Source of the DNA: Caldilineaceae bacterium
GTDB lineage: Bacteria; Chloroflexota; Anaerolineae; Caldilineales; Caldilineaceae
Assembly (NCBI GenBank): GCA_026708085.1
Contig: JAPOVP010000056.1
Span: forward strand, 1 to 64,000
DNA length: 64,000 nucleotides
Reading direction: 5' to 3'
Shown piece after piece: positions 3,509 through 21,188 of the stretch. Made by a program: the position numbers and the translations under genes. Numbering within the stretch: position 1 is the stretch's first letter; the number at the start of each line of letters is the position of its first letter. The notes below the pieces were generated by a model, which saw only the letters and a program-made list of their open reading frames with translations, ran no database searches and was not told the origin of the DNA.

Positions 3509-3619
3509 TGCGCTGGCGGGATCGGGCGGTAGGTCGGTGGGTGGTGGGTTGGGCGAGGTCGTAGCTCTTGAGGATGATGTCGCCGGGGCAGTGGACGGGG
3601 GAGAAGAGGGCAGTTATCG

Positions 3620-4522
3620 CTATTGCTGCAACTGCACAAATGCCGGGGATTGGCCGCAACCTTCCAATAGCTCTTTTGTCTTCTTGAGAGAACGATCGCC
3701 ACTCATATTGGCCTCCAGAAACAGGCAGGTGCCTGGAACAGGTTTGGGGTTAAAGAACTCATTACCGCACGGATGGACCGTTTCGGTGTGGACCAGGTGA
3801 CGAAGCTCGCTTGAGAAATCTGAGAAATCGTCTTCTGTCAACAGTCGATTGGACCAGAGCCACTGCGCTGTCCGCAAAGCCAGATCATACCAGTGGTGTA
3901 CTGGATATTCGGTCCTGTCCAGGAATCGGATTGTCTTGGGACATTCTTTTCCTTTGCGAAAAGAGAATTTCGCCAGTGACGTCCATGAACTCGGATCAGG
4001 ACCGGGCTGGACGGTAGCTGTTGGGTTTTCCGTCCGTACAGGTTGTTCTGAAGTGAGATTGGGCCGCCAGAGAAGCAGGAGACTGAGGGCGCTCTGATAG
4101 GGAGGAGACGCCGAGATCCGCACGTCCAAAATCTGCTTTTCTGCCAGGGAGCCGCTGCCGGAAACGTCGTAGAGTTGCCATTGGTCGCCGTTGGTAATTG
4201 CGGCGTACTTGATGCGGGCATCCTTGGCATAGTCGATTGTCTTGTCTCTATGTTTCTGCAGCGGTTCCTCGAAATGTTTTGCTTCGATGACAGCAGTCGG
4301 ACCGCCCTTCTTGCTCAGCAGCGCGTAGTCGACTTGGCCGTCGCCGATGACATATTCGGGAATGACGAGGAAAGGGTCTGTCGTATCCCAGCCGAGGGCT
4401 TGGAGAAGAGGGTCGACGAGCGCCATGCGCGTGCGTGTTTCGTTGTCTTGGAGAATGGTGTTGTGGTCGGCCATTCGCTGTTTCAGTGTTTCGATAGTTG
4501 TGATCAACTCGTCAGGAAGCAT
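3620..4522 (-). CDS. PD-(D/E)XK nuclease-like protein (type I R-subunit N-terminal fold)
   Basis: The start is ATG at 4522, preceded by AGGAGA; an upstream extension to 4693 lacks such a site. The 300-residue product has the HsdR N-terminal layout: E28 in NETRTR, then LVDPLLQALGW, D65 in GQVDYAL and E80-x-K82 in VIEAKHF, followed by YAAITNGDQWQLYDV. This is the PD-(D/E)XK arrangement used for cleavage or substrate binding in restriction systems. The C-terminal half (about 190-300) is not recognised. It is divergent from the helicase gene at 4924, and its place in the defence island suggests an accessory nuclease. No helicase domain is attached, so it is not a full HsdR. Confidence 0.75.
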   Translation of the reverse strand: MLPDELITTIETLKQRMADHNTILQDNETRTRMALVDPLLQALGWDTTDPFLVIPEYVIGDGQVDYALLSKKGGPTAVIEAKHFEEPLQKHRDKTIDYAKDARIKYAAITNGDQWQLYDVSGSGSLAEKQILDVRISASPPYQSALSLLLLWRPNLTSEQPVRTENPTATVQPGPDPSSWTSLAKFSFRKGKECPKTIRFLDRTEYPVHHWYDLALRTAQWLWSNRLLTEDDFSDFSSELRHLVHTETVHPCGNEFFNPKPVPGTCLFLEANMSGDRSLKKTKELLEGCGQSPAFVQLQQ

Positions 4523-4923
4523 GGTAGTTCTCCTGCGTTCTGAAAGTGGTGCGGGGAGGCAGGCGCTGGAAGTGCCGAATCGGTCCAGCGCAGAAGCCGG
4601 TCGGGCGGTTGACGGAGCGGTGGTTCGATGGTCACGCTGCAAGTTTCCCCGGCGCGGCAATATTATGCCGTTTCTGGCGGCGGTTGACAACACGGGATGG
4701 AATCAAGGTGGATGGAGCAGCAGCGTCCCCGGTTTTTCCGGGATGAGAGTTCGCGCACCCAAGGCGACGGAATGGTCGTTGTGGGGGGAGGGTGAGTACC
4801 GTTTTGCCAGCGGGAGTATGCCTGCAAAATTCTCTGGGGAGCAGGCGCACATGGTAAAATTGGGTATATTTAGGCCGGAAGCAGAGCCGAACTACCTCCG
4901 AAGGATGTCCACAACTTACGACT

Positions 4924-7900
4924 ATGCCACACCAACATATTCTCGATAATCGAGCACATACTGTGGCTGATTATCTGCGGAAACATCTGCAGGGCAGTGA
5001 TGCTTTCCGGCTGGTTTCGGCCTATTTCAGTATCTACGGCTATAAGGAGCTAGCGGACGCGCTGGACAGCGTCGGCGAGGTGCGTTTTCTCTACGGCGAC
5101 CCATCGTCGATTGACGACGTTGACCCGGGTGAAGCGGAGCCGAAGTCGTTCGCCGTTACCGAAAAGGGTCTCGATCCCAGACATGCGCTGGATCAGAAGT
5201 TCGTGGCACAGCGTTGCGCAGAATGGGTAGGCCGCGATAATGTCTGCATCCGTTCCATTGCCCGGGCGAACTTCCTGCATGGCAAGCTCTACCTGACTTC
5301 ACCGCCGCTGCGCAGCATTGTCGGCAGTTCCAACTTTACCCAGCGCGGCCTCGGCGCCAGCAGCCAATCCAACATCGAGATCAACTTCGCCAGCGGCGAC
5401 CTTGAAATCTTCGCCGAACTGCGAGAATGGTTTGACTGTATCTGGGCCGACGGGAGCTTGACCGAGGACGTCAAGCAGCAGGTCCTTGACGCGCTTGCCC
5501 GCATCGGCAGGGAACACGCGCCCGAACTAATCTATTACAAGACGCTCTACGAGCTTTTCCGCGACGAGATCGAGGCGCGTCTCGCACAGGAGGGCCGTAT
5601 AGACGATGTCCGCCTCGTCGACACCGCCATCTGGAAAGCGCTCTACCAGTTCCAGAGAGACGGCGCGTTGAGCGTAATTGCAAGGCTGCAGCGTCACAAC
5701 GGCTGCATCCTCGCCGACAGCGTAGGCCTGGGCAAGACGTACACCGCGCTGGCGGTGATCAAGCATTTCGAACTGCGCAACGAGCGCGTGCTGGTGCTGT
5801 GCCCGCGCAAACTGCGGGAAAACTGGTCGCTCTACCAAGCGCACACCGGGCACAGAGGAAACCCCTTCATCGATGACCGTTTTGCCTACTCGCTGCTCTC
5901 GCACACCGATCTCTCGCGTGACAGCGGCTGGGCGCCGGGCGACATCGACCTGGCCAACTTCAACTGGGAGAACTACGACCTGATCGTTATCGATGAGTCG
6001 CACAACTTCCGCAACCATGAGGGCAAACGCTACGCGCGGCTGCTCAATGAGGTGATCGGAAAGGGGGCCAAGACCAAGGTACTGATGCTGTCGGCCACCC
6101 CGGTCAACACCTCGCTGATCGACCTGCGCAACCAGATCCACTTGATGACTGAGAGCCGCCAGGACAGCTTCCGCGAGAGTCTCGGTATCTCCGACATCGG
6201 CAGCCTCCTCAAGCGCGCGCAGACCCAGTTCAAGGAATGGGAGACCCAGGCCCCGGTCAACGGCAAACGAAACAAGAAGGAGCTTCTCGACAGCCTAGGC
6301 AGCGACTTCTACCGGTTGCTGGGGGGTGTCTCGATCGCGCGCTCACGACGGCAGATCGAGGAGTACTACTCCAAGGAGATCGAGCGCATAGGACGCTTCC
6401 CCGACCGCGAGAAGCCGAAGAACGTCTATCCCCCGACGGACGTGCAGGGCGGCCTGTCCTATAAGAACCTGGCCGAACAGATCAGCAAGTTCGAATTGTC
6501 AGTGTATCGTCCGTCCGACTATGTCGTCAGCGAAAGAGCCAAACAGCAGCTGGCGGAAGAGAAGGAAAAGCGCAACTTCAACCAAGCCGACCGCGAGCGT
6601 TTTCTGATCGCAATGATCCGGACCAACTTCCTCAAGCGGCTGGAAAGCTCAGCTCATTCGCTTACCCTGACACTGGAGCGCACGATCGGCAAGATCGACA
6701 CCCTGTTGGACAAAATCGACCGCTTCGAGAACCGCCAGGCCGGTAAGGACGACTTAGCTGACGCGCTGCCGGACGACGACGAGGACGACGAGGAGTTTCT
6801 CATCAACCGCGCCCGCCATCCCTTCCACCTGGCCGACCTGAATCTCGTGACCTGGAAGGAGGAGCTGCGCAAAGATAGAGACACTCTCAGCGAGGCCTAC
6901 GCCAGCGTCGCGCAGGTTACTCCAGAGCGGGACGGCAAGTTGTTGAAGATAAAGGAACAGATCGAAGCGCGCGTCGCCACCCCGACCACGGACCGCCGCG
7001 GCCGCGAGAATCGCAAGCTGTTGGTCTTCACCACATTCAAGGATACGGCCGAATATCTTTACGACCACCTGCAGGAACTGGCGGCCAGTCTGAATCTCAA
7101 TATGGCCATGGTCTCCGGGGATGCTACGCAAACGATGGCCGGGGCCAACAATTTCAACGGCATCCTCGACAACTTTGCGCCGGTCGCCCGCGGGCGGGGC
7201 GGGAGCAGCAACGGATGCGATATCGACCTGCTCATCGCCACGGACTGCATTTCAGAGGGGCAGAACCTGCAGGACTGCGACACGGTGCTCAACTACGATA
7301 TCCATTGGAATCCGATCCGCATCATCCAGCGTTTCGGGCGGATCGACCGCATTGGCAGCCAGAGCAGCGCTGTACGTATGATCAATTACTGGCCGACTGC
7401 GGAGATGGAGGCGTATCTGCGCCTGCAGACGCGCGTTGAGGCGCGCATGGCTCTGGCCGATGCCGCGGCTAGCGGCGATGAGGACCCGTTTGAAAACCTA
7501 GAAGGCATCCAGGGGGAGCTCAACTTTCGCGCGCAGCAACTCCTTCAACTGCTGGACGAGGACCTCGATCTCGAAGATCTCGACGACGGGGTGACGATGA
7601 GTGACTTTACACTTGACCAGTTCTTTACACAGCTGTTGCACTACCTGGAGAAGAACCGGGAGGAACTTGAGCAGACGCCACTGGGCGCGTACGCGGTGGT
7701 CGACAACGAAAAGGACGCAGGCGTGATCTGGGTGCTGCGACAGCGCAACGCCGACCTGGAGAAGCAGACGCAGGCCGCCAGCCCCGTTCACCCCTTCTAT
7801 CTCGTCCACGTGCGGGAGGACGGAAGAATCGGTCATGGCTGCGCCGGCGTCAGACAGACGCTCGATCTGTTCCAGGCGTTGAGTCTCGGTAAGACGGAGG

Positions 7901-8142
7901 CGATAAATGAGTTGTGCGACCGATTCAACCGCCGTACCGACAACGGCCGCGACATGGCGGCGTACAATGACCGGCTCAATGCCGCCATCGGACATATCAG
8001 CCAGGCGCACGGCAAGGCCCAGATCGCGGGGTTGGGCCTGCAGGGATCGGGCGATTTCAAATTGCCTAAAGCCTCCGCGTCGCCGAAAGAAGCCGAGGAC
8101 TTTGAGCTGGTGACTTGGCTGGTCATTCTGCCGCGGGAGTGA
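4924..8142 (+). CDS. PLD-like nuclease fused to SNF2-family helicase
   Basis: The 1072-residue product has two parts. Residues about 1-180 form a phospholipase D-like domain with one HxK motif (HGKLYL, H119 and K121) followed by GSSNFTQRG. Residues about 240-840 form a superfamily 2 helicase/translocase: Walker A GLGKT (~268-272), DESH box IDESHNFRN (~355), SATPVNT (~390), ATDCISEGQNLQ (~770) and the arginine-finger motif RFGRIDRIGS (~802). The C-terminal ~230 residues are not assigned. The gene is followed after 25 bp by the Eco57I-class methylase, so the two are probably one operon. Such PLD-helicase/methylase pairs occur in defence islands and are likely to restrict foreign DNA (inference). 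Confidence 0.85.
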   Translation: MPHQHILDNRAHTVADYLRKHLQGSDAFRLVSAYFSIYGYKELADALDSVGEVRFLYGDPSSIDDVDPGEAEPKSFAVTEKGLDPRHALDQKFVAQRCAEWVGRDNVCIRSIARANFLHGKLYLTSPPLRSIVGSSNFTQRGLGASSQSNIEINFASGDLEIFAELREWFDCIWADGSLTEDVKQQVLDALARIGREHAPELIYYKTLYELFRDEIEARLAQEGRIDDVRLVDTAIWKALYQFQRDGALSVIARLQRHNGCILADSVGLGKTYTALAVIKHFELRNERVLVLCPRKLRENWSLYQAHTGHRGNPFIDDRFAYSLLSHTDLSRDSGWAPGDIDLANFNWENYDLIVIDESHNFRNHEGKRYARLLNEVIGKGAKTKVLMLSATPVNTSLIDLRNQIHLMTESRQDSFRESLGISDIGSLLKRAQTQFKEWETQAPVNGKRNKKELLDSLGSDFYRLLGGVSIARSRRQIEEYYSKEIERIGRFPDREKPKNVYPPTDVQGGLSYKNLAEQISKFELSVYRPSDYVVSERAKQQLAEEKEKRNFNQADRERFLIAMIRTNFLKRLESSAHSLTLTLERTIGKIDTLLDKIDRFENRQAGKDDLADALPDDDEDDEEFLINRARHPFHLADLNLVTWKEELRKDRDTLSEAYASVAQVTPERDGKLLKIKEQIEARVATPTTDRRGRENRKLLVFTTFKDTAEYLYDHLQELAASLNLNMAMVSGDATQTMAGANNFNGILDNFAPVARGRGGSSNGCDIDLLIATDCISEGQNLQDCDTVLNYDIHWNPIRIIQRFGRIDRIGSQSSAVRMINYWPTAEMEAYLRLQTRVEARMALADAAASGDEDPFENLEGIQGELNFRAQQLLQLLDEDLDLEDLDDGVTMSDFTLDQFFTQLLHYLEKNREELEQTPLGAYAVVDNEKDAGVIWVLRQRNADLEKQTQAASPVHPFYLVHVREDGRIGHGCAGVRQTLDLFQALSLGKTEAINELCDRFNRRTDNGRDMAAYNDRLNAAIGHISQAHGKAQIAGLGLQGSGDFKLPKASASPKEAEDFELVTWLVILPRE

Positions 8143-8167: not shown

Positions 8168-11100
8168 ATGACGACCGGCAACGTCTTAAGAGATATCGAA
8201 GCCGCATTGGCAACTTTTGCGCAGGACGACCTGGTAGACGCGGGGCGCCGCCTGCTCGATACGCTCGGTTATCGCAGTGATCGGAGATTGGAGCTGTCCG
8301 GCTCTGTCGACGAATTCATCGAAAAGCTCCCCGCCCGCAATCCGGGCACGCAGACGGAGAACCGCTTCCGTGATGATGTGGCAACTGCGCGCATCCTTTT
8401 TCAGTTCACCGACTCGGAAATCGCCGAGGCGCAGCCTTCGCTGCTCGATACGGGCGAATTTGACGAGGGAAATGCCCGCAGCTTCATCTTCATTGCCGTC
8501 GAGCTGAACGGTGAAAGATACGCCCGCGGCAGGTATGCCGAATTCACGCGCGAGATAAACAAGCGGCTGAGCCAGCCCACGGTCGTACTTTTCCGGACCG
8601 CCAGCGGGCTGATTTCCTTGGCTTTCGTTCACCGCCGCAAGCACAAGCGCGACGATAGGCGCAGCGTGCTCGGCAGTGTATCGCTGGTTCGCGAGATCAG
8701 TCCCACCAACGCCCACCGCGCCCATCTTGATATTCTACACAAGCTGGCTCTGCCCGAACGTCTATCCTGGATAGACGCCCACCGCAAGCGGCGGAACTTC
8801 GACGGTCTGCTGGAGGCCTGGCTGGACGCGCTCGACACAGAGGAACTGAACCGCAGCTTCTACAGACAGCTGTTCAGCTGGTTCGAGCGTGCGGTCAAAG
8901 AGGCGAGATTTCCTGACAATCAAGTCAAGACGTTGGAGCCCGAAGGGCATGTCATCCGTCTCATCACCCGCCTGCTTTTTGTCTGGTTCATCAAGGAGAA
9001 AGGGTTGATTGCGCCGCAGTTGTTCATCGAACCGCAGATCGGTCCGCTGCTACGCGATTATGACAGAGAAAGCGGCAGTTCCTACCACCGCGCGGTGTTG
9101 CAGAACCTTTTCTTCGCTACACTGAACAGCGAAATCAGCGAACGCGGCTTCAGCAAGCAAAGCAATGTGACGCACCGCGATTTTTCGCGCTACCGTTACC
9201 AGGCCGAAATCGCCGACTCCGAAAAGTTATTGGAACTATTTGACCAGACCCCCTTTATAAACGGCGGCCTGTTCGACTGTCTGGACAGTTTTGAGGCGGC
9301 CGGAGACGGCGGCTACCGCATCGACTGCTTCACCGACAACATTATTGATCCCAAGCGTGGGGATTTCGGCATCCTGTCGATTCCCAACCGCCTGTTCTTT
9401 GACGACGAGGGGCTGATCACTCTCTTCGACCGTTTCCAGTTCACCGTCGAGGAGAATACGCCCGCCGAGCAGGAGGTGGCGCTGGACCCGGAACTGCTGG
9501 GCAAGGTCTTTGAGAACCTGCTGGCTGCTAATGTCGAGGAATCCAAAGAAAATGCCCGTAAACAGTCCGGCTCCTACTACACCCCGCGGGCGATAGTCGA
9601 CTACATGGTGGACGAGTCTTTGGTCGCGTCGCTGGCCCAGAAATGCCCACCGGCGGACGGAGACGTCGAATTTTGGAAAGAGCGCCTCAGCTACCTGCTG
9701 GACTATGAGGACGCTTTCGACGATGCCCACGAACTCTTTGAAGAAACGGAAAGGGAAGGTTTGGTGCGCGCTATCGCCGGGCTGAAGCTGATCGATCCGG
9801 CAGTCGGTTCTGGGGCATTTCCCATGGGCGCGCTGCACAAGCTGACGCTGGCGCTGCGCCGCCTCGATCCCGACAACCTGCTCTGGGAAAATCTGCAGAA
9901 ATCACTGGCCAGGCATCGAGCTGGAGAGGCTTTCGATACGCCTGATCCGGCCGAACGAAACGAGGAACTGGCGGAGATCAGCGCTACCTTCGAGAAGTAT
10001 CGCGACTCCGATTTCGGGCGTAAGCTCTATCTGATCCAAAACAGTATCTACGGGGTCGACATCCAGCCGGTCGCCTGCCAGATCGCGCGTCTGCGCTTCT
10101 TTATCTCTTTGGCAATCGAGCAGGAAAGGGACGAAACAGAGGAGAATTACGGCATCAAACCGCTCCCCAACCTCGAAACCCGCTTCGTCGCTGCCAATAC
10201 GCTTCTAGCGCTGAACACATCCGGCGCGCAGATGAACCTTGCTCCAGACAAGGTACTCCGACTGCAGGAAGATTTGAACACCAACCGCGAGCGTTATTTC
10301 CACGCTACAACGCGGCGCAAGAAGATGGAGTACCGCGACCGTGATCAAGAGTTACGAATAGAGCTAGCATCCGCCCTACAACAGGTAGTCAATCTGCCTG
10401 CCGCCGACGCCGCCAACATCGCCAACTGGGACCCCTACGACCAGAACGCCAGCACAGAGTGGTTCAATAGCACGTATATGTTTGGCGTCAAGCAGGGCTT
10501 TGATGTGGTAATTGGAAACCCGCCCTATATCCAGTTGCAGAAGGACGGCGGTAAACTGGGCAACCTCTACAAGGACGCCGGCTACACAACCTTTGCCCGC
10601 ACCGGTGACATATACCAGCTCTTCTTTGAGAAAGGCTGTCGCCTGCTTAAGCCGGAGCAAGGTCTTCTTTCCTATATCACTTCCAACAGTTGGTTGAAGG
10701 CGGAATATGGCAAGCAATTGCGTCGCTTCTTCTCGGAGAACCACACCCCCATGCGATTACTGGAAATGGGTAAGGACATTTTCGAGAATGCTATTGTGGA
10801 CACCAGCATCTTGCTGGTGCGAGAGGGCAAGAGCGAGCATCCCGGCATCGCAGTAGATATGGATCGGGTCCCCGACACACGTTTTCCTCCATCACGGAAA
10901 GTGTGGGGGCCACTTCGTCATGAAGGCGAGAGACCCTGGAGCGCCCTATCGTCCATCGAGCGGGGAATCATGGATAAAATGGAAGCGATCGGTACGCCGC
11001 TGAAAGAGTGGGATATTGACATTTATCGAGGAGTTCTCACCGGCTACAATAGGGCTTTCATTGTCGATGACGAAGTGAAGTCGGCGTTGATAGCTGATGA

Positions 11101-11794
11101 TCCAAAATCTGCTGAGATCATAAGGCCAATCCTGCGCGGGCGCGATATTCAGCGTTATCGAGCCCAATGGGCGGGACTATGGTTGATTGACACGCATAAC
11201 GGCTATGGGGATGTACCACCCATCAATGTTAACGAATACCCCGCGGTCAGGGCCTATCTCCACCGACACTATGATCGACTTGCATCACGACAAGACAAAG
11301 GGCGGACGCCTTACAATCTTCGCAATTGTGCTTACCACGAAGAATTCAAAAAGGAAAAGCTATTTTGGATGCATATGTCACCAAGAGGGAGATTTGCTTA
11401 CTCTGACTTGGAAATCTATTGCAACCAGAAAGCCTTCTTTCTTACGGGAATTTGTTTGAAGTATCTCTGCGCCATTCTGAATAGTGCTCTTGTCACATGG
11501 TTTATACAAAATACAGCGGTCACCACAGGAATGGGACTAACCCAGTGGGACAAGTTTGTTGTCCAAAGAGTTGCAATCCCTGTAGTTGCCTGTTCAGAGC
11601 AACGTTCTTTCTTATACTTAATTGAGCGCATTCTGTCAGCGAAAGCAAGCAATCCTTTGGCTCACACGACAAATCTAGAAGCCGAAATCGATGAGCAGGT
11701 CTATAGAGTGTACGATCTGTCTTCTCAAGAGATTGCTTACTTAAATGCCATTGATAGATTGGCGCCAATAAACAAGCAGAAACGCCATGCATAG
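8168..11794 (+). CDS. Eco57I-class adenine DNA methyltransferase with TaqI-like specificity end
   Basis: The 1208-residue product is a large N6-adenine methylase of the Eco57I/PglX kind. GSYYTPRAIVDYMV (~467) leads the catalytic part, motif I is DPAVGSGAF (~542), and motif IV NPPYIQL (~781) marks adenine N6 methylation. Residues ~830-1208 form the target-recognition part, with GRDIQRYR (~991), CAYHEEF (~1054) and ILNSALVTWFIQN (~1100). The ~460-residue N-terminal region is family-specific and may hold a nuclease domain, but no catalytic motif is clear. Base composition drops in the last kilobase. Directly downstream lies an inverted copy of the C-terminal part, which makes this gene the likely acceptor of a specificity switch. 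Confidence 0.88.
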   Translation: MTTGNVLRDIEAALATFAQDDLVDAGRRLLDTLGYRSDRRLELSGSVDEFIEKLPARNPGTQTENRFRDDVATARILFQFTDSEIAEAQPSLLDTGEFDEGNARSFIFIAVELNGERYARGRYAEFTREINKRLSQPTVVLFRTASGLISLAFVHRRKHKRDDRRSVLGSVSLVREISPTNAHRAHLDILHKLALPERLSWIDAHRKRRNFDGLLEAWLDALDTEELNRSFYRQLFSWFERAVKEARFPDNQVKTLEPEGHVIRLITRLLFVWFIKEKGLIAPQLFIEPQIGPLLRDYDRESGSSYHRAVLQNLFFATLNSEISERGFSKQSNVTHRDFSRYRYQAEIADSEKLLELFDQTPFINGGLFDCLDSFEAAGDGGYRIDCFTDNIIDPKRGDFGILSIPNRLFFDDEGLITLFDRFQFTVEENTPAEQEVALDPELLGKVFENLLAANVEESKENARKQSGSYYTPRAIVDYMVDESLVASLAQKCPPADGDVEFWKERLSYLLDYEDAFDDAHELFEETEREGLVRAIAGLKLIDPAVGSGAFPMGALHKLTLALRRLDPDNLLWENLQKSLARHRAGEAFDTPDPAERNEELAEISATFEKYRDSDFGRKLYLIQNSIYGVDIQPVACQIARLRFFISLAIEQERDETEENYGIKPLPNLETRFVAANTLLALNTSGAQMNLAPDKVLRLQEDLNTNRERYFHATTRRKKMEYRDRDQELRIELASALQQVVNLPAADAANIANWDPYDQNASTEWFNSTYMFGVKQGFDVVIGNPPYIQLQKDGGKLGNLYKDAGYTTFARTGDIYQLFFEKGCRLLKPEQGLLSYITSNSWLKAEYGKQLRRFFSENHTPMRLLEMGKDIFENAIVDTSILLVREGKSEHPGIAVDMDRVPDTRFPPSRKVWGPLRHEGERPWSALSSIERGIMDKMEAIGTPLKEWDIDIYRGVLTGYNRAFIVDDEVKSALIADDPKSAEIIRPILRGRDIQRYRAQWAGLWLIDTHNGYGDVPPINVNEYPAVRAYLHRHYDRLASRQDKGRTPYNLRNCAYHEEFKKEKLFWMHMSPRGRFAYSDLEIYCNQKAFFLTGICLKYLCAILNSALVTWFIQNTAVTTGMGLTQWDKFVVQRVAIPVVACSEQRSFLYLIERILSAKASNPLAHTTNLEAEIDEQVYRVYDLSSQEIAYLNAIDRLAPINKQKRHA
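11141..11160 (+). repeat. Inverted repeat 1, left copy (in methylase gene)
   Basis: The 20 bases CGCGATATTCAGCGTTATCG encode part of GRDIQRYR. The exact reverse complement is at 12436-12455 inside the inverted fragment, in the corresponding codon phase. Recombination here would swap C-termini in frame. Confidence 0.85.
11327..11346 (+). repeat. Inverted repeat 2, left copy
   Basis: TGTGCTTACCACGAAGAATT encodes CAYHEEF. Its exact reverse complement lies at 12223-12242. A further 17-bp match, AAAAGCTATTTTGGATG at 11355-11371, has its partner at 12198-12214. These could be alternative crossover points giving mosaic specificity domains. Confidence 0.8.
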
Positions 11795-12222
11795 GCCTCA
11801 ACTGGGTCTATGCCACTGAACTCGATATCGAAAGTTGCTCTTTCGGAGTAAGCTCGTATAGCTTGTAGACTCCCTTACTGATCTCGTCTTCAAAGTCACT
11901 CACGTCTGCATTTGGACCAGAGGCCAGTTCGAACATAATGCGATTCACCAATTCAATAAAAGGTTGCTGCTCTTCGGCCGTTTGCATTGGAATTGGCAGG
12001 CGTTCAACAGTGAATCTTACCCATCGAGGAATTCCCATTCCGGAATTAAGAGCAGAATTCTTGATAAACCAGGTAATCAAATCAGAATTGAGCGCTGCAC
12101 ACAAGAATTTTAGCGAGGATCCCGAAACCATGTACGCAGTGTTAGCGCAAAACATAGTTCCTTCTTCGTACGCAAATCGACCTCGTTCTGTTAAATCCAT
12201 CCAAAATAGCTTTTTCTCTCTA

Positions 12223-12242
12223 AATTCTTCGTGGTAAGCACA
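12223..12242 (-). repeat. Inverted repeat 2, right copy
   Basis: Exact reverse complement of 11327-11346, in the CAYHEEF codons of the silent cassette. The neighbouring 17-bp match is at 12198-12214. Confidence 0.8.
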
Positions 12243-12435
12243 AGTATCTTGTAGTTCAAACCAGTGGTGAGGGGTCTTCTTCCTCGATTTGCTCCCGTCT
12301 TTGAGTGTTTGCCCCGCCTGTTCCAATCTCTCTCTGCCGAAGGAAAGCAAATGACTTTTAACTGCAGGATAATCATTGATGTCAAGGTGAAGCGAAGGAA
12401 ATGTCGCTATCAACCACAGCCCTCCCCATAGAGCC

Positions 12436-12455
12436 CGATAACGCTGAATATCGCG
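12436..12455 (-). repeat. Inverted repeat 1, right copy (in silent cassette)
   Basis: Exact reverse complement of 11141-11160. The segment between the outer copies (11141-12455) is about 1.3 kb and contains only the two opposed specificity ends. Confidence 0.85.
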
Positions 12456-12649
12456 GCCTCGCAGGACTGGCTTTATTATCTGGGTGGACTTTGGGTCTTG
12501 AGCAATTATCTTTGCCCTTGTCTCACTATCAATAACGAAAGCTGCGTTATAGCCGGTTTTTATTCCATAGTTTATGTCAGAACTGAGTAGCAGGAATCGA
12601 CTGTCAATCGCTTGTCAATTTCAAGATGTCCACTCTTATTGAGTAGCCA

Positions 12650-13621
12650 ATGACGACACCTGGTTCGATCGAATCCGATCTTTCAGAGCAACTGCGGAAC
12701 GCAGCCTTAGCACACAATACCCGTATCGCCTACGAAAAGGGCTGGCGGTGCTATTCCGACTACTGCCAACGTCAAGGAGTCGAACCGCTCGACGCTACGC
12801 CTGAGGAGGTCGCAGAATTCTTCATCGAAATCGCCACTCAGCCCAGCCCAGCGAGCGGAAAAATCCTCTCATTGGGAACTCTGGCACTATATCGAAGCGC
12901 CATTAATAGACAATTTGTGGATACAAACAGGACATCTCCCGCTGCACATAGCAAAGTAGCTTCCGTGCTGAAGGGACTGGCCCGTTTGCGAGGCGGCACA
13001 ACGCGTCAGGTCAAGGCTCTTCGAGAGCACCACATCGCCGCGATGCTGAGGATTTGTCCTGATACGCTCATTGGTCGTCGAGATGCTGCTTTCCTCGCGA
13101 TCGGCTTTGCCGCTGCCTTGAGACGATCAGAACTGTGCAACCTCAAAGTCACTGATATTGAATGGGTGCAAGAAGGACTGTTGAAAGACAGCCATTTAGG
13201 GATAGTGCTACATATTCGCAAGTCGAAGACAGATCAATTTGGTACTGGGCAAAAGGTTGCTGTGCCGGACGGAAAGAAGATTAGACCGGTGGCACGCCTA
13301 CGCGTTTGGCTACAACAATCTGGAATTCAGAACGGCTATCTTTTTCAGTCGATGCGCAAAAATGGCAGTCTGACTGGATCGCCGCTGCACCACACCGACA
13401 TCCCTCGCTTAGTAAAGCGATACGCGGCGGCTATCGGTCTTGAAGCAAAGGAGTTTTCCGCACATTCCTTGCGAGCAGGGTTTGTTACCAGCGCGGCAGC
13501 CCACCACGCCCGTTTGGACAAGATCATGGAGATCACAAGACACTCCAATCCTGCCACCGTATTGAAGTATATTCGGGACGCCGACGCGTTTACCGACCAT
13601 GCCGGCGCGGCTTTTCTGTGA
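12650..13621 (+). CDS. Tyrosine site-specific recombinase
   Basis: The 323-residue protein has the XerC/XerD-like layout: an N-terminal SAM-like core-binding domain (to ~120) and a C-terminal catalytic domain. Catalytic Arg lies in AALRRSELCNL (~157), HSLRAGF supplies His and Arg (~272-275), ITRHSN the second His (~295), and VLKYIRD the nucleophilic Tyr (~306). Its start lies 36 bp beyond the open frame of the inverted specificity cassette and it faces away from it. There is no integrated element, attachment duplication or phage gene set beside it. Recombinases in this position control hsdS and pglX inversions in other bacteria, so it may be the invertase for the 11.1-12.5 kb segment (inference). 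Confidence 0.88.
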   Translation: MTTPGSIESDLSEQLRNAALAHNTRIAYEKGWRCYSDYCQRQGVEPLDATPEEVAEFFIEIATQPSPASGKILSLGTLALYRSAINRQFVDTNRTSPAAHSKVASVLKGLARLRGGTTRQVKALREHHIAAMLRICPDTLIGRRDAAFLAIGFAAALRRSELCNLKVTDIEWVQEGLLKDSHLGIVLHIRKSKTDQFGTGQKVAVPDGKKIRPVARLRVWLQQSGIQNGYLFQSMRKNGSLTGSPLHHTDIPRLVKRYAAAIGLEAKEFSAHSLRAGFVTSAAAHHARLDKIMEITRHSNPATVLKYIRDADAFTDHAGAAFL

Positions 13622-13842: not shown

Positions 13843-15033
13843 TTACGGAGAGAGAACAATCGAGGAATCCGGCCAGTCGAGGTCTTCTATGCTTTCCAGC
13901 GTCACCTTGCCATGAGTGTCAAACGCTGCCTGTAACCGCTCGCTAAGCCAGGAGAGACTCTGGGTAGATAGCTTCGCTTGTGGCTGACGTCTAATTGCTG
14001 CTCTCGGCTTCGTGTTTCCTTTGCCGCTTGCGGCATTTTTCTGTGTGGACTCGAATGAGTCGGCTCCGAACGTTTTCATCAGTTCGTTAAGCGAGACGCC
14101 ATTCTTAAGCGTGCCATCAACGAACTCAGCGTGGTGGACTCGGACGAAGTGTGGCCACCTTGCCTTCCGGGGTCGCATTTCTATATCAGCCTCTGTTGCG
14201 TCGTCTCTTCCCGGCCTGTGCGCCATTGCGATGGCTCGACCGAAGATACGGATGTCGTTTGGGCCCTGCGTGAAACGCCCAATGAAAATGATATCGTCGT
14301 CCTGCACGGCCTTTGGCCGCCTTCCGTTCTTGTAACCGGGATAGCCGACTGCCCAGTGACATCCGGACCACTTGATTGCCTCTACGGTTGACTTCGACAG
14401 GTCTTCACGTTCGTCGTTCGTGCCCAAGAATTTCACGAATGCCTGCGATGCATCGGACACGGCGGTTGGCACATGCGCAGGAGGGGCATCGGCAATCCCG
14501 GCATCCGCACCAAAGTCGCCGAGGCCGCCTTTCCCCTTTGGGCGGCCGCCTTCCAGCCAATGGGCTTTGACAGTTCGGTCCCAGGTGTCGAGTTGATCGT
14601 GCAGTAGGTCGTTGCCGGCGCGGTCCCATAGGTCATTGAAATAGTCCAAACAGTTCTCGACAGTAGTCTCTTCGCTGGTAACCATGCCGAACTCATGGTT
14701 TGAATCGAGCGCGGCCACGGTAAGGTTGGCCGAGGTGATGACGGCACGCGTCTTGCTGACGAGGTACAACTTGGCGTGGAGGTTCTTCACGCCGCGAACT
14801 GCGGCGCCGGCATCGAGCAGATTTCGCAGCGCGGCGACGTCGCTGACGCCTTCCGCAAAGTCGCCGAGATTGAAGCGGGTGATGACCTGAATCTTTCTTG
14901 GGTTATGTTGCAGTAGCCGCTGAAGGGCGCCTGCTTTTATGAAGGGACAGATGATGCGAAGCTCGCTGGCGTCGTCTTTGAGAGCCTTAGCGAATTCCGT
15001 GGTCCAGTTTCCGTCAACCAGTCGAGTAGGCAT
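13843..15033 (-). CDS. Stand-alone PLD-like nuclease-domain protein
   Basis: The 396-residue product begins with a phospholipase D-like domain holding one HxK motif, HAKLYLVSKTRAVITSANLT (H86, K88, N103). It also has the typical lead-in ICPFIKAGALQRLL and VITRF. One motif per chain suggests a dimeric active site. The remainder (180-396) contains AFVKFLGTNDER and a Gly/Lys-rich linker and is not recognised. It is convergent with the recombinase gene. PLD proteins of this kind occur in restriction and DISARM-type loci, so a defence role is plausible, but no DISARM partners are present. Confidence 0.75.
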   Translation of the reverse strand: MPTRLVDGNWTTEFAKALKDDASELRIICPFIKAGALQRLLQHNPRKIQVITRFNLGDFAEGVSDVAALRNLLDAGAAVRGVKNLHAKLYLVSKTRAVITSANLTVAALDSNHEFGMVTSEETTVENCLDYFNDLWDRAGNDLLHDQLDTWDRTVKAHWLEGGRPKGKGGLGDFGADAGIADAPPAHVPTAVSDASQAFVKFLGTNDEREDLSKSTVEAIKWSGCHWAVGYPGYKNGRRPKAVQDDDIIFIGRFTQGPNDIRIFGRAIAMAHRPGRDDATEADIEMRPRKARWPHFVRVHHAEFVDGTLKNGVSLNELMKTFGADSFESTQKNAASGKGNTKPRAAIRRQPQAKLSTQSLSWLSERLQAAFDTHGKVTLESIEDLDWPDSSIVLSP

Positions 15034-15236: not shown

Positions 15237-18200
15237 CTACGGCGGGCTGACCACCTCCACGTCGTGTGCATTCGTGGCGGCAACCAGCGGCCCGTACACC
15301 CATGCGGTGCGGCCTTCGTAGCTGATCTGCCACCAGTCGCCGGGGGCGGCGTTTTTGCCGGTGATGGGGAAGGCGTCGCCGGGTGCGGCGGTGCCGATGA
15401 TGGCGAAGCTGGTGCCGGGGCCGGCGCGGACGTTGATGGGGGAGATTATGACGGCATGCGGCCTCAGGGCGGTCTGCGGGTCGGTCGTGGCGGCGCGGTT
15501 GACGGAGACGGTGTAGCCGGCCGGCGCGTTCGATCGCGGATGTTCGTTTCTGACGATCAGGTTGTACACGCCGGCGTGGGGCGCGTACAGGACGATGCGG
15601 GCGTCAAGCCCGAAGAGACCGCCGCCGCTGTTCTCGTCTACCATCAAGACCCCCTGATTTTCTCCGCGGTAACCAGAGACGGCGAGCTGAGAGTCGGCCA
15701 TGATGGAGCGTACGACGATCTCGACCTTTTCATCCTGCTGCAGGTCGAGGGAAAGGTAGTCGATGTCGCTTGGGAAATCGATGTTGCCGCGGTAGGTCTC
15801 TCCAACCGCGAGTTGCTTGCCATCGTCGGGGTCTTCCAAGGGCACAAGCGGGTGGCTCGATGTCAGGGCAATGTCGTTTGAGACCTGCAGAAGGACCAGG
15901 AAGTAGAGGCCGCTGCTGGAGATGACAAAGGAGATTGAGCCGGTGCGGCCGTCCGCCAGTTTTTTGCCGTAGATGTCGACGAGCTGGATCCTGTCATCAG
16001 CGTCGGCGCCGGCGAGCTGGATTTCGACGGCGGTCTCGGGCGGTTCGTGGAGCAGGTAGGCGGTGCCGTCGTCTTGCGGCGTCAGGCTGTGGTTATGGGC
16101 GCCGGCCGTCAGCTTGAGCTGTCTTGGGCCGAGGCCGGCGGGGTCCCGGCCGGCGATGAGCTGGCGGATGCGGGGCAGCAGGTCGGCTGAGGAGGCGGCG
16201 AGGCCGAACTCGTCGAAGACTTTGAAGCCGCTGAGGCCGATGACGGCGCCGGTCGCGGAGACGAGCGCGCCGCCGCTCTGTCCTGCGGCGATGGCGGCAT
16301 CGGTCTGGAAGAAGGTGATGCCGGCCGGCTGCCACTCGCGCGTACGGGAGAGGATGCCGCGCGTCATGGTTGGTTGGGGATAGGCTTCGATCTCGGCCGG
16401 GTAGCCGACCAGGAAGAGCTCGGAGCCGGTCGAGAGCTGTTCGCCGTCGAGCATGGGCAGTGGCTGAGCGGGGGCGTCAACCGGGCCGAGGACGGCGAGG
16501 TCTGCCAGCAGGTCCCAGTCGATGACGGGCACATTTCTGAGGACGGTCCCGTCGGGGAAGACGACGCCCGCCGTGTCGTAGGGCCAGACGACGTGGGCGT
16601 TGGTGACGATGTATCCGCCCTCGATGAGAACGCCGCTGCCGCGCCCGGTCCAGGTAATGACGAAGGCGATGGCCGGCGAAACGGTTTCGAAGATCCGGGC
16701 CGCGGTGAGGTCTTGGCCGGTTGCGGCGGCGGTCGATGCCGCCGGCTGGCAGAAGGGCAGATCGAGAAGCAGGATATCGCTTCTTTCAACGCTTTCCCAG
16801 GCAGCGGGTATACACCCGCTCAGGCGGTTGCCGGCGAGAGAGAGGATCTCCAGATGCCGGAGGTTACGCAGTTCTGACGGAACTGCCCCGCTCAGCCTGT
16901 TATCTGAGAGGTCCAGCCCTGTAAGTCGGGCGAGGTTGCCCAACTCGGGGGGAATTTCCCCGCTCAAGCGGTTGTCGGCAAGGTTCAGCCCATTCATGTT
17001 GGCGAGGTTGCCCAGTTCGGATGGTATTTCCCCGCTCAACTGATTCGAAGCGAGGGACAGATTTTCCAGGCTGGCGAGATTGCCCAGTGCCGGCGGGATG
17101 GGGCCTTCCAGGTTGTTTTCCGCCAGGATCAGCATTTTCAGGCTGGCAAGGCTGCCCAGTTCTGACGGAATCGGACCGCTGAGTTGGTTCTTTGCGAGGA
17201 ACAGCAGTTGCAGGTGGGGCAGATTTCCCAGTTCTGCGGGGATGGTCCCTTTCAGTCCATTGTCGAAGAGGCTGAGTCCGATGACGCGACCGTTCTTGTA
17301 GGCGACGACACCGTGCCAGTCATCGATTGGTTCGTTGCTCAACCAGTTGTGGTTGTTCGTCCAGTTGTCGCCGCCGGCGGCGTGGTAGAGCGCGATGAGC
17401 GCGTCTCTGTCTGAGCAGAATGGCAGGCCGACTTCGTCCAGGTCATTTTCCTCGACATTATGCCAGAGCGCGGGCAGGCATCCGGTTAGGCGGTTGTTTG
17501 CGAGGTGGACCCATACCAGGTGGGTGAGCCTGGTCAGCTGCGGCGGGACTTTGCCGCTCAGGTCGTTTTTATTGAGGGCCAGATATTCCAGATTGCCGAG
17601 GTCGGGTGGAATCGTGCCGCGCAACCGGTTCCCCGCGAGGGCCAGCGACTTCAGGTTGGTGAGGTTGCCGAGGTCGGGTGGAACTGTTCCTTCCAAGCGG
17701 TTGTTCAAGAGGGCAAGCTGTTCCAGGTTGGCGAGCTTTCCCAGCTCTGGCGGGATTGGACCGGTCAGCTGGTTCGAATAGAGGAGCAGTAGTTTCAGGC
17801 TGGCAAGGTTGCCCAGCGCGGCTGGAATTGCGCCGCGCAAGCGGTTCTCTGGCAGGTTGATCATTTCCAGCCTGGAAAGGTTGCCCAGCGCGGCCGGGAG
17901 CTCTCCATTCAGCTCGTTTTCGGGGAGATTCAGTCCGATGACACGATCGTTTTCGTCTGTGAAGACGCCGTACCAGGTCTGGAGCGGTGCGTCGCTGAGC
18001 CAGTTGCGGTTTCGCAGCCAGTTGTCGCCGTCTGTGGCTTCGTAGAGGGCAATGAGCGCCTCGCGATCGGAGCAGAACGGCAAAGAGATGTCGTCAAAGT
18101 CGTTTTCCTCAAGATCGCGCCAGATCGCCGGCAGGCATCCGGTTATCCCGGAGTGTGAGAGGTATAGGTAGGTCAGGTTGGCCAGGTTCTCAAGTTCGGG

Positions 18201-18991
18201 CGGAATCGGACCGCTCAGCTTGTTGCTCCAGAGGTCCAGCATCTCAAGGTCTGTGAGGTTGCCCAATTCTGGGGGAATCGGACCGCTCAACTGGTTGTTT
18301 CCGAGGCCCAGCCGTCTGAGATTGGTGAGGTAACCCAATTCTGGGGGATCGGACCGTTCAACTGGTTATCCCCGAGGATCAGCCATACCAGGTTGGTGAG
18401 GTTGCCCAGTTCTGGTGGAATCGGACCACTCAACAGGTTGTCTGCAAGTATCAGCCATTCCAGGTTGCTGAGTTCGGCCAATTCTAGCGGAATCGGACCA
18501 GTTAGGCGGTTGCTAAGAAATATCAGCCAATGCAGGTTTTTGAGTCTTGCCAGCTCTGACGGAATTTCCCCGCCCAGCCGGTTATGGTTGAGATAAAGTA
18601 GCTCGAGGTTGGAGAGGTTGCCCAGCTCGGGTGGAACTGCTCCGCTCAACTGATTCTCTGAGAGATTTAGCACTACAAGGCTGGAGAGGTTGCCCAACTC
18701 GGATGGGATGGCTCCCCTCAGATTGTTATCCGAGAGGTCCAATTCGAAGACGCGACCGTTGCGGTCCGTATGGACACCGTGCCACGAAATGAGCGGCCGG
18801 TCACCGAGCCAGTTGCTGTTGTTTTTCCAGTTATCGCCGCCGGTCGCGTGGTAGAGCGCGACCAGCGCTTCTCTGTCGGTGGCTGCGGACGTCTGTGTAT
18901 GGGGCGCTGCGGATGCTTGGGGAATCCTGAGCCCAAGGGTCAGGGCAAGGACAGCCAATACGGCAATCGGGAATCTGAAGGGGGATTTCAT
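15237..18991 (-). pseudogene. Secreted LRR / trypsin-like protease / SH3 protein, frameshifted
   Basis: A signal peptide (MKSPFRFPIAVLAVLALTLG) leads three LRR blocks starting near residues 38, ~307 and ~527. Each opens with DREALIALY...GGDNW and has plant-type repeats of the LSGPIPPELGNLxxL kind. A trypsin/HtrA-like domain follows with His in TNAHVV (~799), Asp in LADLAVLG (~830) and Ser in AGQSGGAL (~905). C-terminal beta-rich regions and an SH3b-like domain (INVRAGPGTSFAIIG to YEGRTAWVYG) complete about 1250 residues. The frame breaks at 18343-18347, where a run of five G needs six to encode GPIPPELGY, so the two frames are 18287-18991 and 15237-18338. This is either a real one-base deletion or a sequencing error. 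The role is probably extracellular binding and proteolysis. Confidence 0.8.
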
Positions 18992-19227: not shown

Positions 19228-19254
19228 GGTGGATCTTGCGTGTTGCGGCGTCTT

Positions 19255-19277
19255 CCCCAGCACTGCCGGGGCTTTTT
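19255..19277 (+). terminator. Terminator-like hairpin in the LRR gene leader
   Basis: CCCCAGCACTGCCGGGG can fold into a hairpin and is followed by CTTTTTT. It lies only ~20 nt after the expected transcription start and 55 bp before the coding start, so it may act as an attenuator or define a very short RNA. Confidence 0.5.
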
Positions 19278-19331
19278 TGCGGCTGCGGGAGAGGGCCGAA
19301 CTATCCTATCAAGCCGAGGGGAGTGTCGTTG

Positions 19332-21188
19332 ATGAGATTCAGGGAGAGGTGTGTGCGGGCCGGCGGTTGGGCGGTGCGGGTGGTGTGGGCGGCGGTGGTT
19401 GTTGCGGCGGGGGCCTGTACGTTTGCGGCGGGGGGGCTGGAGACGGCGCTGTGCTCGAACGGGGTCGCGGTGGCGGAGCCGGCGGAGAACGGGGGGCTGG
19501 TGGCCGACTGCGCGGCGCTGCTGGGGCTGAAGCAGGAGCTGGCCGGGGATGCGGTCCTGAACTGGAGCGAGCAGCTGCCGCTGGATGCGTGGGAGGGCGT
19601 GAGCACCGGCGGGGCGGAGGATGCGCCGGCGCGCGTGACCGAGCTGCAGCTGGACGGGCGGGGGCTGACGGGCGAGATCCCGGCGGGGCTGGGCGCGCTG
19701 TCGATGCTGGAGGGGCTGTGGCTGCACGACAACCGGTTGACGGGCGGGATCCCGGCGGCTCTGGGGACGCTGGTCAAGCTGGAGTGGCTATGGCTCTACG
19801 ACAACCGGCTGACAGGCGCGATTCCGGTCGAGCTGGGGGCGCTGACGCAGCTGGTGGGGCTGGGGCTGCACGAGAACCAGCTGACGGGCCCGGTGCCGGC
19901 CGGGCTGGGCGGGCTGGCTGAGCTGGAGTGGCTGCGGCTGGACGGCAACCGGCTGACGGGCGAGATCCCGGCGGCGCTGGGCGGGCTGGTCGCGCTGAAG
20001 GGGCTGGGTCTGCACAGGAACCAGCTGACGGGCCCGATCCCGGTCGAGCTGGGCGGGCTGGCCGCGGTCGAATGGTTGCGGCTGGACGGCAATCACCTAG
20101 AGGGAGAGATCCCGGCGGAACTGGGTTCGCTGGCCAACCTGGAGGGGCTGGGTCTGCAGGAGAACCATTTGGAGGGGACGATCCCGCCCGAGCTGGGCGG
20201 GCTGGCCAATCTCAACTGGCTGCATCTGTTCAACAACGATCTGGAGGGCGGGATCCCGCCTGAGCTGGGGGGGTTGGAGAATCTGGAGTGGCTGCGGCTG
20301 GACGGCAACGGTCTTTCGGGCGCGATCCCGGCAGAGCTGGGCGAACTGGTCAATCTGCGCGAGCTGCGCCTTTCGGACAACCGGCTGACCGGCCCGGTGC
20401 CGGCGGCGTTGGGGTCGCTTGCGAGTCTGGAGTGGCTGCGGCTATCGGATAACCAGTTGTCGGGCGCGATCCCGGCGGAGCTGACCGGGCTGAGCAGGTT
20501 GCGCGAGCTGGGGCTGGCCGACAACCGGCTGACGGGTGAGATTCCGGCGGCGCTGGGCGAACTCGTCTTCCTGGAGGGGCTGGGGCTGGAGGGGAACGGG
20601 CTGACGGGCGCGATCCCGGCCGAGCTGGGCGGGCTGGCCGACCTGGAGTGGCTGCACCTGGCGGACAACCGGTTGGAGGACCCGATCCCGGCGGCACTGG
20701 GCGAGCTGGCCAAGCTACAGTGGCTGCGGCTGGACGGCAACCGGCTGACGGGCGAGATTCCGGCGGCACTGGGTGAGCTGCACGATCTGAAGGGGTTGGA
20801 CCTAGACGGGAACGGGCTGACGGGCGCGATCCCGGAGGAACTGGGGCATCTCGACAATCTGAGAGAGCTGGGGCTGGCCGATAACGGGTTGACGGGCGCG
20901 ATCCCGGCGGCCTTGGGCGCGCTCGACGACCTGCGGGAGCTGCGGCTGGACGGCAACCGGCTGGCAGGCGCGATCCCGGCCGCGCTGGGCGCGCTGACGA
21001 ATCTGCGCGAGCTGGGTCTTGCCGACAACGGTTTAACGGACGGGGTGCCGGCGGCGCTGGACGGGCTGGTCAATCTGCGCCGGGTGCGGCTGGCGGGGAA
21101 CGGGTTGGACGGCTGTGTGCCGGGGCACTGGCGCGAGGTGGGTGACGGCGATTTTGGGGAGGCGGGGCTGGGGTTTTGCGGGGGATAG
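19332..21188 (+). CDS. Secreted leucine-rich-repeat protein
   Basis: The 618-residue product has a basic N-terminus, a hydrophobic stretch VVWAAVVVAAGAC and a possible lipidation cysteine, so it is exported and perhaps membrane-anchored. From ~100 to ~600 it consists of about 21 plant-type LRRs of 24 residues (LTGEIPAALGELxxLxxLxLxxN). It ends with a capping motif LDGCVPGHWREVGDGDFGEA. It has no enzymatic domain. ATG at 19332 was chosen because the signal peptide follows and GAGGGGAG lies upstream; a longer frame from 19236 runs through the terminator hairpin. It is divergent from the LRR-protease gene. A binding role at the cell surface is likely; the ligand is unknown. Confidence 0.85.
   Translation: MRFRERCVRAGGWAVRVVWAAVVVAAGACTFAAGGLETALCSNGVAVAEPAENGGLVADCAALLGLKQELAGDAVLNWSEQLPLDAWEGVSTGGAEDAPARVTELQLDGRGLTGEIPAGLGALSMLEGLWLHDNRLTGGIPAALGTLVKLEWLWLYDNRLTGAIPVELGALTQLVGLGLHENQLTGPVPAGLGGLAELEWLRLDGNRLTGEIPAALGGLVALKGLGLHRNQLTGPIPVELGGLAAVEWLRLDGNHLEGEIPAELGSLANLEGLGLQENHLEGTIPPELGGLANLNWLHLFNNDLEGGIPPELGGLENLEWLRLDGNGLSGAIPAELGELVNLRELRLSDNRLTGPVPAALGSLASLEWLRLSDNQLSGAIPAELTGLSRLRELGLADNRLTGEIPAALGELVFLEGLGLEGNGLTGAIPAELGGLADLEWLHLADNRLEDPIPAALGELAKLQWLRLDGNRLTGEIPAALGELHDLKGLDLDGNGLTGAIPEELGHLDNLRELGLADNGLTGAIPAALGALDDLRELRLDGNRLAGAIPAALGALTNLRELGLADNGLTDGVPAALDGLVNLRRVRLAGNGLDGCVPGHWREVGDGDFGEAGLGFCGG

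Follow-up and report, generated by a model that had tools for sequence, protein, structure and literature searches.

A locus encoding an Eco57I-class adenine methylase, found in the window (the whole stretch of 64,000 nucleotides of a Caldilineaceae bacterium analysed here), appears to be an invertible specificity cassette of this methylase, with a neighboring Cre/Xer-like recombinase as the likely catalyst; we assign this reading a probability of about 85%. Exchange between inverted repeats situated in conserved codons would flip 0.9-1.3 kb. The active gene would thereby acquire the silent C-terminal target-recognition region, fused in frame to its body, and its previous one would fall silent. 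Each locus has two or three sites, and inversions at one and then another of them would build mosaics. The methylase can thus probably change the DNA sequence that it marks, and members of a clonal population would mark, and via an SNF2/PLD partner probably restrict, different sequences. That such switching occurs in living populations, at whatever rate, we infer from assembled genomes.

The source contig is 175,919 bp long and belongs to an assembly of 6.2 Mb in 193 contigs. The locus comprises, in this order, a PLD/SNF2 helicase, the methylase, an inverted copy of the methylase C-terminus, a tyrosine recombinase and, on the opposite strand, a DrmC-like PLD protein (Table 1). The helicase, which is likely to be the restriction partner of the methylase, is found in the same position in six other genomes (G010, G012, G014, G015, G016 and G003) and in one G004 locus. 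The methylase matches the PADLOC model REase_MTase_IIG at 465 bits, and its TaqI_C specificity domain was mapped by Pfam to residues 987-1122. A profile built from the C-terminal two thirds of the protein aligns with the MTase and C-terminal parts of a methylase of solved structure, 7lni (E 3e-42). The N-terminal 400 residues (1-400) matched no Pfam family, and no nuclease part was recognized. An AlphaFold model of residues 401-1208 has a mean pLDDT of 61, with values below 50 over residues 652-739 of the model. The recombinase scores 64.3 bits against the Pfam Phage_integrase cut-off of 27.1, and R158, K193, H272, R275, H298 and Y307, which we take to be its catalytic residues, are invariant in seven sequences including that of the window. 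The DrmC-like protein adjoining it (13843-15033, minus strand) is a strong PADLOC match that stays under the NCBIfam cut-off. Further on lie two large, opposed ORFs (15237-18991, minus strand, and 19236-21188, plus strand) that look leucine-rich-repeat-like by eye and share many similar stretches.

Table 1. Features of the methylase locus, in coordinates of the window.
Feature	Position	Strand	Basis or remark
PLD-domain SNF2-type helicase	4924..8142	+	Pfam Helicase_C, SNF2-rel_dom, PLDc_2; PADLOC C3a139 'HKD+Snf2', 386 bits
Active Eco57I-class adenine methylase, type IIG-like, 1208 aa	8168..11794	+	Pfam Eco57I, 124 bits; TaqI_C, 45 bits
Beta-site repeat (RDIQRYR), arm 1	11141..11160	+	exact, 20 bp
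Active beta module, DTHNGYG type	11161..11325	+	counterpart in the G010 silent copy
Gamma-site repeat (CAYHEEF), arm 1	11326..11346	+	exact, 21 bp
Third repeat (EKLFWM), arm 1	11355..11371	+	exact, 17 bp
Active gamma module	11372..11794	+	
Silent inverted copy of the methylase C-terminus	11808..12614 (open frame 11811-12614)	-	ATFPSLH-type beta module; different gamma module
Third repeat, arm 2	12198..12214	-	
Gamma-site repeat, arm 2	12223..12243	-	
Beta-site repeat, arm 2	12436..12455	-	
Tyrosine recombinase (Cre/Xer-like), 323 aa, candidate invertase	12650..13621	+	Pfam Phage_integrase; profile match to Cre over 35-312

An initial reading made from the sequence alone had described a non-identical, inverted, tail-to-tail copy of the methylase C-terminus with a tyrosine recombinase beside it, and this anatomy was confirmed: the silent copy has an open frame and is 44% identical to the methylase C-terminus, and the recombinase ORF starts 36 bp beyond position 12614. 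The outer 20-bp repeats and the 17-bp pair of that reading were recovered as described, and the inner pair was found to be 21 bp long rather than 20. As had also been proposed, all three repeats fall in conserved codons and are in register in both copies, which keeps the frame; around them the match extends, imperfectly, to arms of 98 nt (79%) and 76 nt (82%). When the codons of the silent copy were permuted among positions with the same amino acid, three or more exact runs of at least 17 nt were obtained in 0 of 5000 shuffles, so that the set exceeds chance; the single 20-nt run of the window is modest when taken alone (P=0.04 in the same test). Under this test, the longest runs in G010, L051 and L052 (23, 46 and 27 nt) gave P of 0.002, 0/5000 and 0.002, and in all four loci tested the longest exact stretches sit at the borders of modules. 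Comparison of positions 11000-12650 with the 6.2-Mb genome yielded no match outside the cassette at E 0.001. The claim that the inverted copy is promoterless could not be established, as 11700-12800 contains two promoter-like matches against 1.4 expected, one of them inside the copy and on its strand (12532-12505, minus).

Inversion in silico at the 20-bp repeats, at the 21-bp repeats or at both gave open proteins of 1206, 1197 and 1217 aa, compared with 1208 aa for the assembled form, which makes four distinct computed forms of the methylase. The predicted replacement of about the last 215 residues was thereby reproduced in computation, with a slightly different length: 207-209 residues are exchanged after a shared 999, and the TaqI_C domain lies mostly inside the exchanged part.

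The strongest support for the mosaic route comes from G010, a genome of the same genus with the same gene order and a recombinase 82% identical to that of the window, which was recovered by a search with the methylase and not with the recombinase. For the beta module, nucleotide identity is high between copies in swapped roles (73% for window active and G010 silent, 79% for window silent and G010 active) and low between copies in the same role (52% and 50%). The gamma module shows the opposite pattern, with 69% and 75% for same-role pairs and 54% and 49% for cross pairs. Between the two genomes, beta has been exchanged between the active and silent copies and gamma has not. A swap of beta alone is the mosaic expected from two inversions at different repeats, since one inversion would swap both modules. 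The suggestion that the inner repeats allow mosaic domains is thus borne out by an actual pair of relatives.

A methylase followed by an inverted copy and then a recombinase was found in 11 further loci from Chloroflexota and Latescibacterota, giving a set of twelve: the window, G010, L051 (Dehalococcoidia, OX638324), L052 (Latescibacterota, JAJEHL010000017), G636, G815, G913, G929, G736, G747, G1083 and G1181. Ten of the twelve were recovered with the recombinase as bait: L051 and L052 in a scan of genome contigs, G636, G815, G913 and G929 in the class or order of the L051 genome, G736 and G747 in the phylum of the L052 genome, and G1083 and G1181 in the phylum of the window. In 12/12 loci the inverted copy is directly followed by the recombinase gene, an adjacency largely given by the search, in which the recombinase served as bait. 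The active copy of G747 is represented on its contig by its last part only, and the methylase of G736 is split upstream. Recurrence in 12 assemblies, including two in which the contig measures 2.5 or 2.9 Mb, makes it scarcely credible that two orientations or strains were collapsed into a false tail-to-tail join by the assembler, even with the 7.5% contamination listed for the genome of the window.

With the centre genome counted in each case, the recombinase was detected in 3/46 genomes of the family (E 1e-20), 4/294 of the class of L051 and 5/64 of the phylum of L052 (both at 1e-60), and 7/250 of the order of L051 and 3/400 of the phylum of the window (both at 1e-100); a wider class sample gave 8/396 genomes at E 1e-30, five of these being merely distant (33-39%). 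All 25 recombinase loci taken together comprise the 12 full cassettes, four that show no more than the silent copy or the first part of it (G927, G591, G727 and G746), four whose contig breaks off within the recombinase or shortly before it (L053, L056, L057 and L058) and five with no methylase copy beside it (G061, L054, L055, G606 and G925). Viral contigs gave one weak match (26%), and the 286 plasmid records with recombinase relatives all fall below 60% identity. Relatives at 57-58% without a methylase are present in the Gammaproteobacteria (L053, L054 and L055); those in L054 and L055 adjoin a divergent gene with RTX repeats, and a short scan revealed no clear invertible promoter. In several relatives, a distant PLD/SNF2 helicase (~27% identical) is placed after the recombinase and not before the methylase (L051:12080-15622; L084:6226-9726; L125:2378-5617; L128:10467-13988).

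Of the modules compared across the loci, beta has two clear types, DTHNGYG and ATFPSL, and 11 of the 12 loci hold one of each, the active type of G747 being inferred from its last two residues; the active copy is DTHNGYG in six loci and ATFPSL in the other six. The exception is locus t (G1083), in which both beta modules are of the ATFPSL type. A short alpha part further upstream, of IYRG or INYG type, is complementary in 13 of the 14 loci with both copies readable, a count that includes the contig ends of G591, G727 and G747 and rests on types assigned by eye from alignments and not resolved by automatic clustering; in locus q (G929) the alpha modules of both copies are of the same type. For gamma, at least three types were distinguished by eye. 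All four alpha-beta combinations occur. Beta is likewise combined with gamma types 1 and 2 in all four ways, already in the window and G010 alone. Both junctions thus pass the four-gamete test for recombination.

These patterns bear on the alternative that the silent copy is a decaying duplicate, whose modules came to differ in the course of evolution by horizontal replacement or by one-way gene conversion. The active and silent copies are indeed only 44-54% identical in the four loci compared, and in loci q and t one module is not complementary. The silent frame, however, is open in 12/12 loci, that is, in 11/11 beyond the window, beta types are paired in nearly all of them, and the longest exact runs coincide with module borders. 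Two types paired in nearly every locus fit reciprocal exchange better than one-way conversion, and we regard decay as improbable. The sequence-only reading had also named the absence of the alternative orientation from relatives, or stops in their inverted frames, as evidence against a switch; as it turns out, the relatives do carry alternative states, G010 being the example, with open silent frames throughout.

A more serious alternative, although still an unlikely one, is that the inversion is real and is driven by general homologous recombination between coding stretches that the copies have in common, the recombinase being a neighbor with another job. The repeats vary in place and sequence between loci. 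The beta-site repeat is found in the window and G010, and the longest exact repeat of the other loci is usually further upstream, at the alpha site, in the codons around FIIDNxTK (46 nt in L051, 27 in L052, 38 in G636, 23 in G736, 44 in G913, 40 in G815, 66 in G929 and 21 in G1181). A gamma-site repeat of 15-49 nt is present in the window, L052, G636, G736, G747, G929 and G1181, and G1083 has no exact repeat of at least 15 nt. A motif common to the three kinds of repeat was sought in nine pairs, none of which beat random gene-segment pairs (118 to 382 of 400 reached the observed value). A classical single-site recombinase would be expected to leave a shared site motif, whereas the repeats here have none beyond chance, which points either to a recombinase with relaxed demands or to homology-driven exchange. 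The presence of the recombinase family beside RTX-type genes in two Gammaproteobacteria loci is also in line with another job.

Against homologous recombination stand the 15-24 bp repeats, which are short for RecA, the position of the recombinase directly after the copy in all 12 loci (with the reservation that 10 were found by its bait) and a set of controls. Among related methylase loci without the recombinase, the inverted copy was found in 0/12. These controls (G012, G014, G015, G016 and eight G004 loci) were not baited by the recombinase; they were queried with the window methylase, and each was then compared with itself on opposite strands, a procedure that detected both of the two cassette loci used as positive controls. 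The DNA available after the methylase was 2.7 to 6.0 kb, with only 2.7 kb in L038, and L039 of G003, cut by the contig end, was kept outside the twelve. The control loci share descent, and for this reason no P value is given. In G004, a genome of the same genus assembled as a single contig, no such recombinase was detected at E 1e-20; it has eight methylase paralogues (L028-L030 and L032-L036), several of them with very different C-termini. In favor of a homology-driven process, spnIII recombination in the pneumococcus is reported to be independent of all known pneumococcal site-specific recombinases (PMC6620402).

Contig ends near the cassettes were considered as a possible sign of coexisting orientations. 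In G727, a 24-nt inverted repeat contains the end of both the methylase and the recombinase contig, at one and the same base; the methylase contig of G747 breaks off in a repeat that is 39 nt or longer; and in G591 the recombinase contig reaches 33 nt into the repeat region and that of the methylase 55 nt. The methylase contigs of G003 and G061 end near the cassette, at no checked repeat. Word lengths of 33, 39 and 55 are common in assemblers. This line was set aside, because a repeat longer than the assembler word, such as the 66-nt exact repeat in G929, could produce the same ends.

Within the preferred reading of an invertible cassette, a more specific proposal can be put forward tentatively, and we rate it somewhat below an even chance: three junctions (alpha, beta and gamma) in two copies might form a combinatorial shufflon within one gene, yielding up to eight specificities, with paired complementary types maintained in Chloroflexota and Latescibacterota and a dedicated recombinase that accepts unrelated coding repeats. 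The exchange junctions can be read from the reassortment of modules between genomes, and the locus opens a direct test of whether a fused methylase with half of its recognition region swapped acquires a new working target, and of how the cell survives the change. The natural library of modules could also be useful for working out how type IIG-like enzymes recognize their targets.

Regarding classification, known defense systems that share components were compared with the locus. In BREX, the Eco57I-class methylase PglX has a switched C-terminus; the window methylase scores 75.3 bits against the curated PglX cut-off of 500, and filing under BREX was rejected on this ground, five neighbors having been scanned. 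DISARM was likewise rejected, as NCBIfam DrmD (145.6/610) and DrmC (38.1/133) are both under cut-off; contrary to the NCBIfam result, the PADLOC DrmC model matches at 425.6 bits. The window protein combines an Eco57I-class methylase and a C-terminal recognition domain in one chain, as type IIG enzymes do, and it fits the PADLOC type IIG models. The same layout is seen in CamA-like orphan methylases, 7lni being presumably CamA itself, and we know of no inversion of CamA. In L052, a sigma-70 family protein (3568-5211, plus strand; Pfam regions 2, 3 and 4) carries a fused N-terminal domain that resembles methylase residues 1-256, and similar fusion ORFs, 56-91% identical, occur in G747, G727 and G736 (L105:1465-3186, L100:661-2307 and L108:1426-2835); the fusion is directly upstream of the switchable methylase in L052 and G747.

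Among the matches listed, judged by titles and the first lines of abstracts, none dealt with the inversion of type IIG-like methylases; the study of gene-altering programmed inversions by Milman et al. 2023 (cited in PMC11892184) lies outside that set. In Helicobacter pylori, recognition sequences of restriction-modification genes have moved between positions within a gene (PMC3077401); the opening of that abstract names neither an inverted silent copy nor a recombinase, both of which are present here. In its working the locus resembles the type I hsdS genes of the cod locus of Streptococcus pneumoniae, in which the tyrosine recombinase PsrA is reported to drive inversions at inverted repeats (PMC4948785, PMC7096588, PMC11709252). 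Both systems combine a tyrosine recombinase with inverted repeats, but the exchange takes place in a separate hsdS gene in the pneumococcus and would take place in the C-terminus of a fused methylase here. Invertible specificity switching, known from type I hsdS, would be extended to uncultured phyla with a fused methylase of the Eco57I class.
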